The position numbers were made by a program, and so were the translations under genes. The notes under the pieces are model-generated. The model did no database searches, was not told the DNA's origin, and was given only the letters and a program-made list of their open reading frames with translations. Positions 21,596-25,074 of a DNA stretch of 64,000 nucleotides are shown in pieces. Position 1 is the stretch's first letter. Each line of letters begins with the position of its first letter. Source of the stretch: Paludibacterium sp. B53371 (lineage in GTDB: Bacteria > Pseudomonadota > Gammaproteobacteria > Burkholderiales > Chromobacteriaceae); NCBI RefSeq assembly GCF_018802765.1, contig NZ_CP069163.1, positions 3,296,311-3,360,310 on the forward strand, in the 5' to 3' direction.

Positions 21596-23383
21596 TTATT
21601 GCTGGGGGTTGAGCCAGTTCTCCTTGCCGTGGATTTTGTTGAGGGCCGACAGATAGGCCTTGGCCGAGGCGACGATGATGTCGGTGTCGGCACCCTGGCC
21701 GTTGACGATGGTACCGTCGCGCGCCAGACGCACGGTGACTTCACCCTGCGACTCGGTGCCCTTGGTGATGGCGTTGACCGAGTACAGCTGCAGTTCGGTA
21801 CCGCTGTTGACCACCGATTCGATGGCCTTGAAGGCGGCATCGACCGGGCCGGAACCGCTGCTGACGGCGCGCTTTTCTTCGCCGCCTTCGGCAAAGACGA
21901 TTTCGGCGCGCGGCTCTTCGCCGGTTTCGGTGCTGACCTTGAGCGAGACGAACTTGAAGTCTTCGCGCTCGACGGCACCGATGCCGTCGGACAACAGGGC
22001 ATACAGGTCTTCGTCGAATACTTCGCGCTTCTTGTCGGCCAGATCCTTGAAGCGGGCGAAGGCGGCGTTGAGGGCCTCTTCGCTGCCCGGCTCGATGCCG
22101 AGTTCAGCCAGTTTGGTCTTGAAGGCGTTGCGGCCGGACAACTTGCCGAGCGTCAGGCGGTTGGCGCTCCAGCCAACGCTTTCGGCCGACATGATTTCGT
22201 AGGTTTCGCGGTGCTTGAGTACGCCGTCCTGGTGGATGCCGGATTCGTGGGCAAAGGCATTGGCGCCGACGATGGCCTTGTTCGGCTGTACCGGGTAGCC
22301 GGTGATGGTGGACACCAGCTTGGAGGTCGGCACGATCTGGCTGCTGTCGATGGCGGTTTGCAGGCCGAACAGGTCGCTGCGGGTTTTGACCGCCATGACC
22401 ACTTCTTCCAGGCTGGCATTGCCGGCGCGCTCGCCCAGGCCGTTGATGGTGCACTCGACCTGACGGGCACCCGCTTCGACCGCGGCCAGCGAGTTGGCCA
22501 CGGCCATGCCGAGGTCGTTGTGGCAGTGGGTGGACCACACCACCTTGTCGGCGCCGGGGACGCGCTCGATCAGGGTGTGCATGCGCTGGTACCACAGCGA
22601 GGGGATGGAGTAGCCGACGGTATCGGGTACGTTGATGGTGCGGGCACCGGCCTGGATCACCGCATCAAAGATGCGGACCAGGAAGTCCATGTCGGAGCGC
22701 ACGGCGTCTTCGGCGGAGAACTCGACATCGTCGGTGTAGTTGCGCGCCTGTTTGACTGCCCGGACCGCGGCCTCGACCACCTGGTCGGGGCTCATGCGCA
22801 GCTTTTTCTCCATGTGGATCGGGCTGGTGGCGATGAAGGTGTGGATGCGGCCGCGGTTGGCCGGGCGAATGGCCTCGCCGGCGGCGCGCACGTCATTGTC
22901 GTTGGCGCGCGCCAGCGAACAGACGGTCGAATCGCGCACCTGCTCGGCGATGGCGTGGATGGCCTGGGCATCGCCCGGACTGGCGGCGGCAAAGCCGGCC
23001 TCGATCACGTCCACCCCGAGCCGCTCCAGCTGGCGCGCGATGCGGATTTTTTCCTCGCGGGTCATGGAAGCGCCCGGGCTTTGTTCGCCGTCGCGCAAGG
23101 TGGTGTCGAAAATGATCAGACGATCGCCCATCTTGTGGTTTCTCCCTGTTGCAGCCGACACCGGCGAGACAGCCAGATAGTCGTTGTAATTAAAGGTTCT
23201 GCCTTGATTGGCCGCCCATTGCGCCAGCTTGTTGAGCTGGGCGAGCGGCAGGCTGCCACGCTCTCTCCATTTGTAGATTGCAGCACGGGAAACCGGCTCA
23301 TCGGGAAAGGTTCGGCTCAGGGCTTCGGCCAGGGGGCCGGGTCCACCAAAATCTTCGATCAGTCGCTCGATGTCCAATTGCAT
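21596..23383 (-). CDS. leuA: 2-isopropylmalate synthase LeuA with N-terminal helix-turn-helix extension
   Basis: The open frame codes 595 residues. Residues 85-595 are a normal Leu[21 protein letters not shown], the metal motif [27 protein letters not shown] and a C-terminal LeuA regulatory domain. Residues 1-84 are extra and look like a Cro/CI-type helix-turn-helix ([11 protein letters not shown], then [15 protein letters not shown]). Both possible starts have ribosome-binding sites: GGAG six bases before 23383, and AGGGAG ten bases before the internal ATG at 23131. A fused protein and a shorter LeuA may both be made. The gene commits ketoisovalerate to leucine and ends the ilv-psd-pssA-leuA order. 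Confidence 0.93.
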
Positions 23384-23495
23384 GTTTCACTCCGCTGCTT
23401 ATGTGACTTCAGACTGCCGTTTATCCGACATTACGTCAAATGTTGCTCTGCATGATGGCTAATTTTCTGTGGTAAATTCTGTCACACCGCTCAAT

Positions 23496-23514
23496 ATTGG
23501 ACATATAGTCCAAT
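23496..23514. promoter_or_regulatory. Perfect palindrome in the leuA / thrS-paralogue divergent region
   Basis: ATTGGACATATAGTCCAAT is a perfect 7-5-7 dyad. It lies 113 bases upstream of the leuA start and 67 bases upstream of the threonine leader peptide. A TATAAA at 23534-23539 on the plus strand could be the -10 box of the leader transcript. It is a candidate operator, possibly for the helix-turn-helix domain of LeuA. Confidence 0.5.
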
Positions 23515-23580
23515 TCTTAATCCTGGCGCTGCGTATAAAACCCCATTGACATAGCCGCGCTTCTCCCGCAGGCTAAATGC

Positions 23581-23694
23581 ATGGAACCCGTCCGCGCCCA
23601 ACTGTCCTCTGTCCTCGCCCTGGCCTGCTCGTCAAGCCAGGCGATGTCGCGCGTACTGGCCACCACCACCGAGACCCCCACCACGGCTACCTGA
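23581..23694 (+). CDS. Threonine-rich leader peptide (attenuator) of the thrS paralogue
   Basis: The 37-codon frame ends RVLATTTETPTTAT then TGA: seven of its last ten codons are Thr (ACC or ACG, positions 23662-23691). This is the hallmark of attenuation by Thr-tRNA level, as in thrL. A weak AGG lies eight bases before the ATG. The stop codon sits at the edge of the first arm of the RNA stem described next. The real gene starts 87 bases downstream. It would be induced when charged tRNA-Thr is scarce. A longer overlapping frame from 23577 is less likely to be the functional one. Confidence 0.75.
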   Translation: MEPVRAQLSSVLALACSSSQAMSRVLATTTETPTTAT

Positions 23695-23726
23695 GACGTT
23701 GTGGAGGTAGCCAAATGGCTGCCTCC
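23685..23726 (+). promoter_or_regulatory. Mutually exclusive RNA stems of the threonine attenuator
   Basis: Arm 1 GGCTACCT (23685-23692, containing the last leader codons) pairs perfectly with arm 2 AGGTAGCC (23705-23712). Arm 2 in the form GGAGGTAGCC (23703-23712) pairs instead with arm 3 GGCTGCCTCC (23717-23726) around the loop AAAT, with one G-T pair. A ribosome finishing the leader covers arm 1 and favours 2:3; stalling at Thr codons could free arm 1. The 2:3 stem has no T-run, so it may act by Rho or on translation. Confidence 0.65.
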
Positions 23727-23781
23727 CGACCGGTGATGACCTGCGGCGAGTCAGCCGAACATCACTGACAAGGAGTCGATC

Positions 23782-25020
23782 ATGGTTGTCCCCGCCCCCG
23801 CCGTTTCCCCTGTTGCCGCCGTCGAGGCGAGCGAACTCGATGCCCGCGACCACCGACTGCTCGGCCAGCAGCTGGATCTGTTTCATCTGCAGCCGCAGGC
23901 CCCCGGCGCGGTGTTCTGGCACCCGCGTGGCTGGACGCTGTTCAATTTGTTGATCGATCACTTGCGCCGACATCAGCAGGCGGCCGGCTATGTCGAGGTC
24001 AATACGCCGGATCTGATGGATCTGGCGCTGTGGCAGCAGTCGGGCCACTGGGACAATTTCCGCCAGCACATGTTTACCAGCCTGACGCAGGACGAGCGGC
24101 AGATGGCACTCAAGCCGATGAGCTGTCCGGGGGCGGTGCAGCTGTTTGCCCACGGGCTGAAGAGCTGGCGTGATCTGCCGCTGCGCATGGCCGAATTCGG
24201 CAAGGTGCATCGCTACGAGCCGTCTGGTGCGCTGATGGGGCTGAAACGCCTGCGCCATTTCACCCAGGATGACGCGCATATTTTCTGCACGCTGGCGCAG
24301 ATGGATGGCGAGTGTCAGGCAATGATCCAGCTGTTGCTGGCGGTGTATCGGGATTTTGGCTTTGATCAGGTCAGGATCAGGCTGTCGACGCGACCGGCAC
24401 AGCGCATGGGCAGCGATGCGCTGTGGGACCGTCTGGAGGCAGCCCTGTCCGGCACGCTGCAGGCGCTGGGCGTGGCTTACGAGATGAATCCGGGTGAAGG
24501 CGCGTTTTACGGGCCCAAGCTGGAATTCGTGCTGACGGATGCCATCGGGCGCGACTGGCAATGCGGGACGCTGCAGGTGGATTTGATCCTGCCGGAACGG
24601 TTTGATCTGGGTTATATCGATGCCCAGGGCGAGCGGGTGCGGCCGGTGATGCTGCATCGTGCGGTGTTCGGCTCGCTGGAGCGCTTCATGGCCGTGTTGC
24701 TGGAGCATCATGACGGCACGCTGCCTGGCTGGCTGGCGCCGCTGCAGGCGGTGCTGCTGCCGATCAGCGCCCGGCATGCCGGGCATGCAGCCGGGGTACT
24801 GGCCTTGTTGCAGCAACAGGGTCTGCGGGTGGCGCTGGATGCGCGCGCTCAGACCATCGCCCTGCGGGTTCGCGAACACAGTCTGCAACGTATTCCGCTG
24901 ATGCTGGTGATCGGCGATCAGGAGGTGGCGGACGGCACGCTGGCGGTGCGCTCGTGCCGCGGCGAGCGGCTTGGCGCTCATGCCCCGGCGGCGATTGTCG
25001 AATGGTTACGGGCGCACTGA
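23782..25020 (+). CDS. Threonyl-tRNA synthetase paralogue lacking TGS and editing domains
   Basis: At 412 residues it is about 230 shorter than standard ThrRS. The match begins at the catalytic domain (ARDHRLLGQQLDLFHLQ). Class II motif 2 (RMAEFGKVHRYEPSG, with RHFTQDDAHIFC) and motif 3 (GSLERFMAVLLEHH) are intact, as are the zinc ligands C115, H166 and H292, followed by an anticodon-binding domain (about 318-412). The N1 TGS and N2 editing domains are absent, so Ser-tRNA-Thr could not be cleared in cis. AAGGAG lies six bases before the ATG. A Thr-rich leader precedes it. It is probably a starvation- or inhibitor-induced second ThrRS; the housekeeping thrS is not in the window. Confidence 0.92.
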   Translation: MVVPAPAVSPVAAVEASELDARDHRLLGQQLDLFHLQPQAPGAVFWHPRGWTLFNLLIDHLRRHQQAAGYVEVNTPDLMDLALWQQSGHWDNFRQHMFTSLTQDERQMALKPMSCPGAVQLFAHGLKSWRDLPLRMAEFGKVHRYEPSGALMGLKRLRHFTQDDAHIFCTLAQMDGECQAMIQLLLAVYRDFGFDQVRIRLSTRPAQRMGSDALWDRLEAALSGTLQALGVAYEMNPGEGAFYGPKLEFVLTDAIGRDWQCGTLQVDLILPERFDLGYIDAQGERVRPVMLHRAVFGSLERFMAVLLEHHDGTLPGWLAPLQAVLLPISARHAGHAAGVLALLQQQGLRVALDARAQTIALRVREHSLQRIPLMLVIGDQEVADGTLAVRSCRGERLGAHAPAAIVEWLRAH

Positions 25021-25023
25021 CGC

Positions 25024-25057
25024 AAAAAAAGCCGCCGGCATGGTGCCGGCGGCTTTT
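25024..25057. terminator. Bidirectional terminator between thrS paralogue and pssA
   Basis: GCCGCCGGC and GCCGGCGGC form a perfect nine-base stem around ATGGT, flanked by seven A on the left and TTTT on the right. It serves both convergent genes. Confidence 0.93.
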
Positions 25058-25074
25058 CGTGTACAAGGCCGTAC

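Follow-up and report, generated by a model that had tools for sequence, protein, structure and literature searches.

A recurring threonine-rich leader element, probably a translational attenuator, before an auxiliary threonyl-tRNA synthetase gene in Paludibacterium sp. B53371

The window considered here, a stretch of 64,000 nucleotides of contig NZ_CP069163.1 of Paludibacterium sp. B53371 (positions 3,296,311 to 3,360,310), carries on its + strand a gene for an auxiliary threonyl-tRNA synthetase (ThrRS) of 412 residues (thrS2, 23782..25020; Pfam, NCBIfam), flanked by genes of leuA and pssA type and preceded by a small threonine-rich open reading frame (ORF) and a series of segments able to pair with one another. 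The protein matches the catalytic (PF00587) and anticodon-binding (PF03129) families and the thrS model TIGR00418 (494.3 bits vs. a cut-off of 383.65), with a weak match to PF13393 under the cut-off. A sequence-only reading had described it as a second ThrRS devoid of TGS and editing domains, and this description holds: Pfam found no TGS or editing family in the protein, the frame, followed back from the ATG, closes after 14 codons, and the N-terminal domains of five full-length ThrRSs gave nothing better than E 0.08 when searched against the window. The genome (3.63 Mb, one contig) has one other strong ThrRS match, 52% identical and lying in an open frame of 643 codons, and the editing-type domain PF07973 has five matches in the genome, one of them in that frame and none in the window.

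ThrS2 retains 103 of 110 near-invariant columns, and keeps the Cys/His/His and further residues (E. coli numbering) that we take to be the zinc ligands and the catalytic residues; the enzyme presumably charges tRNA-Thr. At codon 152 (24235-24237) a Met replaces the motif-2-loop His (E. coli 371), which is present in 133 of 133 other rows of the alignment. All 61 genomes of the family gave a ThrRS match, and an intact short ThrRS frame was found only in this one, with G044 carrying the gene in broken frames, G009 (61% complete) giving a weak match only, and a 443-codon frame in G046 running to the end of the available stretch. In each of the 80 loci kept from 580 relatives, the frame stays open for 239 codons or more before the match. 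Strong matches in further genomes (threshold E 1e-150 or 1e-158, in overlapping samples) numbered 20 of 399 in the order, 3 of 369 in the class and 6 of 398 in the phylum, every frame having at least 636 codons. P0001 has matches in 30 phage records, each below 60% identity.

The leader ORF (23581..23694, + strand) has 37 codons and translates to MEPVRAQLSSVLALACSSSQAMSRVLATTTETPTTAT, with Thr at seven of its final ten codons. Such a density (at least seven Thr per ten codons, six frames) occurs once in the window and in three stretches of the 960,480 bases of the 80 relatives' loci, and none of 5000 dinucleotide shuffles of 23540-23781 attained it. The Thr tract is however C-rich, and its remaining two frames are rich in His and Pro, so that the Thr count alone is weaker than it appears; we accept the leader ORF as real because it is present in three relatives, whose leaders, together with the translation, bear out the 37-codon leader proposed from the sequence. 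A promoter-like TTGACA, 17-nt spacer and CAGGCT (23546..23574, + strand; promoter scan) ends 6 nt before the leader ATG and would start a transcript at or near the leader AUG. By eye, all four genomes show a −10-like box 6-7 nt in front of the leader ATG (window 23569-23583), namely TAGCCT, TAGGCT and TAGGGT at 6, 7 and 7 nt in the three relatives, in two of which the promoter scan put other pairs first. The leader mRNA may thus be leaderless, as reported for thrL of Streptomyces lividans (PMC8079986).

Downstream of the Thr run, and partly within it, lie the segments that had been proposed to pair in two mutually exclusive ways. Arm A, GGCTACCT (23685..23692, + strand), is inside the leader ORF, where it covers the final codons and extends one base into the stop; arm B, GGAGGTAGCC (23703..23712, +), can pair with A or with C; arm C, GGCTGCCTCC (23717..23726, +), carries CCUCC, an anti-Shine-Dalgarno sequence whose CUCC can pair with the Shine-Dalgarno sequence (SD) of thrS2. 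A hairpin, D (23731..23767, +), separates arm C from this SD (AGGAG, 23771..23775, +), which the local folds lead us to propose as a fourth arm. The two exclusive pairings are indeed there, as an A:B stem of 8 pairs at −12.8 kcal/mol and a B:C stem of 10 pairs at −19.3 kcal/mol in the window, although these energies make the alternatives unequal in strength; mutually exclusive triples of 8-pair arms appeared in 9 of 500 shuffles.

Among 65 of the 66 members of the wider FastTree clade of thrS2, scanned over the 300 nt before the gene starts, three show at least seven Thr in ten codons (loci L122, L128 and L129), all from genomes of the same order as the window genome. Their leaders have 40, 39 and 42 codons and end in TTTTTTSTAT, TTTTTTSTAT and TTTTTTTSMAT, against TTTETPTTAT in the window. 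The window's Thr codons lie at offsets −23, −20, −17, −11, −5, −2 and +4 from arm A, and those at −23, −20, −17, −11 and +4 are Thr in all four genomes. Between the last Thr codons and the gene, the relatives' DNA can be aligned to that of the window at the three arms, at CCGGTGAT and at GAGTCAGCC. Arms A and C are identical in the four genomes and arm B in three of them, being one letter off in L128; the common pattern is GGCTACCT / RGAGGTAGCC / GGCTGCCTCC, followed by the hairpin and the SD, and among 231 loci it matched solely in loci of these four genomes. A sequence model built from the three relatives, the window left out, found 23681-23782 as its sole match in the 64 kb (E 1.2e-8). The expectation that orthologues would share the leader was borne out by three relatives; no leader of this kind precedes the gene in other near relatives. 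The element was not found in plasmids (blastn) or in viral contigs (exact pattern), an RNA model returned only the two matches already known in the five genomes of the G091 family, and across 30 further sources it gave nothing better than E 0.09. G046 has 35 nt that match the start of the leader; these were set aside, as by eye they seem to be the stretch before another gene's end.

Since the arms hardly vary and the element has only four members, covariation is uninformative for the arms. The tip of hairpin D, GAGUCAGCC, is conserved and its stem sequence varies among the four; in a register common to L122, L128 and L129 (as transcribed from the alignment; the window folds in another register), nine pairs were compared, of which two differ on both sides, one differs on one side, and two have one broken cell. 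In all four genomes, folding from arm C to the SD closes CUCC:GGAG onto hairpin D, at −22.8, −26.3, −23.7 and −25.5 vs. −17.8, −18.7, −15.6 and −20.4 for hairpin D alone. The thrS frames behind the leaders of the three relatives have 640 to 695 codons and, in the two that were scanned, include TGS and editing domains. The assignment to an editing-less class of paralogues consequently stands for the window enzyme and fails for its leader-bearing relatives: TGS and editing were seen to be lost solely in this genome, and such a loss is no trait of the leader-regulated genes.

Predicted accessibility of the SD was followed in the window, L122, L128 and L129 (values below in this order). In local folds the unpaired value of the SD was 0.03, 0.07, 0.03 and 0.01 with arm A free, 0.80, 0.60, 0.53 and 0.84 with arm A covered, and 0.21, 0.03, 0.03 and 0.22 when four nucleotides of arm B were covered as well; the rise on covering A was matched by 10, 4, 8 and 2 of 300 shuffled middles. 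In the local folds of all four, the SD is thus predicted to be hidden by default, hidden as well with a ribosome at the leader stop, and exposed by covering arm A alone, which is the logic expected of a sensor of tRNA charging; this behaviour becomes uneven with more flank. With the folds extended by 80 nt on the 5' side and 45 nt on the 3' side, masking raised the SD value from 0.22 to 0.60 in L122 and from 0.17 to 0.45 in L129, had little effect in the window (0.35 free vs. 0.39-0.49 masked, with an SD opening energy of 5.3 vs. 5.1-7.6) and none in L128 (0.21 vs. 0.17-0.20). A window fold over 23577-23830 took the SD from 0.06 to 0.23-0.51 with a ribosome at Thr28-Thr34, and gave 0.49 also with the ribosome at the stop; in the wider folds a ribosome at the leader stop did not hide the SD again in the window (0.49) or in L129 (0.39). 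The SD gain of the window taken by itself was attained by 39 of 200 shuffles. From arm A to the AUG, the enforced B:C state came to −48.4, −48.4, −38.6 and −53.5 and the enforced A:B plus C:SD state to −40.3, −50.3, −45.8 and −44.8, so that either may be the lower, with a gap of 2 to 9 kcal/mol; the window favours B:C over A:B by 9 kcal/mol. As the B:C state pairs arm A with the SD in the window and in L129, there the SD would open only if arm A is covered. With a footprint of +12, ribosomes stalled at the first three Thr codons would fall short of arm A.

We regard a threonine-specific translational attenuator of the auxiliary thrS as the probable function of the element. With plentiful Thr-tRNA, the ribosome on the leader would reach the stop codon and either leave or sit over arm A and the start of arm B; the CUCC of arm C could then pair with the GGAG of thrS2 atop hairpin D or, alternatively, a free arm A could pair with the SD, and in either case thrS2 would go untranslated. 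With charged tRNA-Thr scarce, a ribosome slowed on the later Thr codons would cover arm A only, B:C would form and trap the anti-SD, the SD would open and extra ThrRS would be made. Borrelidin has been reported to halt ribosomes at Thr codons (PMC13410324). The element itself is compact and stands in four genomes; if our reading of it is right, its target is translation and the SD is its last arm. Direct pairing of the Thr run with the SD as the sole switch was rejected, the window duplex being equalled by 207 of 1000 shuffles and 469 of 1000 random segments.

The comparison first drawn with thrABC attenuation did not survive the analysis. A scan of the window showed no intrinsic terminator-like site between the leader and the thrS2 ATG, and the longest T run from leader stop to thrS ATG is 2, 2, 1 and 3 in the four genomes; as no run exceeds three before the gene in any of them, no intrinsic terminator was seen, classical terminator attenuation was rejected, and the SD of thrS2 looks like the fourth arm instead. 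No T-box fold was found; at gathering score, Rfam reported nothing in the window besides RNase P. The same genome also holds a Thr leader of the classical kind, at its housekeeping thrS (L231:2037-2300, i.e., C1:1129536-1129799 of the genome), where a tRNA-Val gene lies upstream and the leader, MLAVRTTTTGFSS, is accompanied by a strong intrinsic terminator. Out of 29 thrS loci taken from the family, one was too short; by our own criterion for calling a leader, 22 of the remaining 28 have a Thr leader, and an intrinsic terminator is present in 28 of 28. We found no report of this leader and terminator at the family's housekeeping thrS in the open-access literature. One genome thus offers two Thr leaders, with a terminator at the housekeeping gene and terminator-less at the spare, which can be compared in one cell.

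Control at the level of transcription could also come from Rho, the C-rich leader serving as a Rho loading site that a Thr-stalled ribosome protects, possibly acting jointly with the translational switch. The segment 23605-23682 has C 0.46 and G 0.23, an excess attained by 0.17% of the 78-nt windows of the + strand, and the E. coli uORF toiL is reported to regulate translation and, indirectly, its target through premature Rho termination (PMC12121999). Ten other + strand regions of the window are nevertheless equally C-over-G, the C-richness is due to the ACC codons, and the anti-SD of arm C and the hairpin next to the SD, present in all four genomes, would be left unexplained; we consider this explanation unlikely. 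Less credible still is a coupling by reinitiation, in which the leader, a second small ORF (ATG 23715 to TGA 23766-23768, + strand) and thrS2 would be translated one after the other, the Thr run being incidental. The second ORF does follow a GGAGG 7 nt before its ATG and ends 13 nt before that of thrS2, and leader genes near starts may boost expression by reinitiation (PMC4833913), but its own SD sits within the B:C stem, and reinitiation would not explain why four genomes have the Thr run at similar offsets.

Other alternatives concern the enzyme. A decaying leftover of ThrRS2 behind a functionless leader would fit the long branch (1.12), the lost N-terminal domains and the change of the motif-2-loop His to Met; against it, the 412-codon frame is intact, the catalytic residues are kept and the leader arms are as in distant relatives, which makes decay quite improbable. 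An auxiliary resistant TrpRS is reportedly under a leader, and thrS2 might be a paralogue that gives resistance, as ObaO does, with a leader sensing the inhibitor, a reading we hold to be very doubtful. ObaO is a second ThrRS conferring obafluorin resistance (PMC11252418), yet the known substitution for obafluorin/borrelidin resistance is missing here: Gly463 and Leu489 of E. coli, replaced by Ser and Met in ObaO, are Gly244 and Leu270 in thrS2. Its neighbours, moreover, are leuA- and pssA-type genes. With regard to the translational attenuator, a further proposal is that through it threonine starvation switches on a ThrRS free of proofreading, that this enzyme charges tRNA-Thr with serine, and that the resulting built-in Ser-for-Thr mistranslation keeps ribosomes moving; we consider it improbable, and the lost proofreading domain makes adaptive mistranslation directly testable. 

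Overall, the Thr-leader element is real and recurring; most likely it attenuates the translation of an auxiliary thrS, and in this genome it is placed on an enzyme devoid of proofreading. It would join two stories usually told apart, that of spare synthetases kept for stress and that of leader peptides sensing tRNA charging.

The thrABC operon has the classical Thr leader attenuator; such systems share with the window the leader of Thr codons and the alternative stems, and differ in the intrinsic terminator that is absent before thrS2. An auxiliary antibiotic-resistant TrpRS gene is said (Vecchione and Sello, 2010) to be regulated by ribosome-mediated transcriptional attenuation, which would be leader-type control of an auxiliary synthetase as in the window, although transcriptional and for Trp, whereas no terminator is seen here. 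The thrZ gene of B. subtilis is induced by Thr starvation. It codes for a second ThrRS and is controlled at the RNA level according to charging, as proposed here, but its T-boxes read the tRNA directly, and Rfam reports no T-box in the window. Attenuators have been predicted before trpS and leuS, and His leaders before hisS paralogues. In S. lividans TK24 a Thr leader, thrL, precedes thrS, is leaderless and has no U-rich terminator (PMC8079986); it has 18 residues with two Thr, as compared to 37 residues and seven Thr in ten here, and the available part of that report describes no anti-SD switch and does not call the gene auxiliary or editing-less. The absence of any precedent, as first supposed, is thus contradicted by these near ones. 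The LEU element of actinobacterial leuA (PMC1262725) likewise combines a run of control codons and the SD in one terminator-less fold, but, as far as that source describes it, with leucine, a biosynthetic gene and a pseudoknot in place of threonine, a synthetase and three arms with anti-SD and hairpin. In the open-access literature we found no Thr leader described before an auxiliary or a betaproteobacterial thrS, which is weak evidence of novelty as most subscription papers, e.g., the 2004 survey of proteobacterial attenuation, fall outside that scope.

As to its origin, thrS2 shares a FastTree clade with 34 other ThrRSs, some of them plasmid-borne. Genes of zinc starvation (folE2, COG0523, dihydroorotase, hisI and others) lie next to 31 of the 34. 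The three without are L122, L128 and L129, where the check was extended over 17.5, 17.5 and 9 kb; the two scanned genes adjoin unrelated ones (MFS and EAL; histidine kinase and response regulators). In a mixture-model IQ-TREE analysis of 42 rows, thrS2 falls just outside the zinc group on a branch of 1.12, and a single clade of the four leader-bearing enzymes is not rejected (p-AU 0.524) and not displayed by the free tree. The thrS2 enzyme is probably kin to the ThrRS2 enzymes of zinc starvation, and an origin of the zinc type is likely. The zinc-regulated auxiliary ThrRS T2 of Anabaena is comparable in its impaired editing, with the window enzyme likewise devoid of proofreading and its kin in zinc clusters; T2 differs in being described as under Zur and in having a degenerate editing domain (PMC4787780) where the window enzyme has none. 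The window holds one distant hisI match as its only zinc-cluster neighbour. Zur control of thrS2 was rejected, the best Zur-like box before the gene having four mismatches in a scan that is itself weak (just 3 of 44 zinc-cluster relatives within one mismatch). Elsewhere in the genome, a FUR-family gene lies beside a cobW-family gene.

The leuA-pssA interval (23384-25074) is variable within the genus, its occupants differing among relatives: no ThrRS2 match was present at leuA in 11 relatives (3.6-4.6 kb each), and by eye two close relatives have other genes, LysR- and MFS-like, at this position. A 19-bp palindrome (23496-23514) was discarded as an operator of thrS2, as by eye like palindromes precede the same form of leuA in relatives devoid of thrS2; its pattern is unenriched in the genome (119 vs. 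145 for the control, at most two mismatches). The leuA gene (21596-23383, − strand) has an N-terminal extension of about 84 residues that we read as helix-turn-helix-like, for which Pfam names no family and which is matched in 11 of 11 relatives; the palindrome lies upstream of the gene, and it is possible that LeuA regulates itself. In G043 a long CGACTG repeat tract lies between pssA and leuA (L196:3489-4040).
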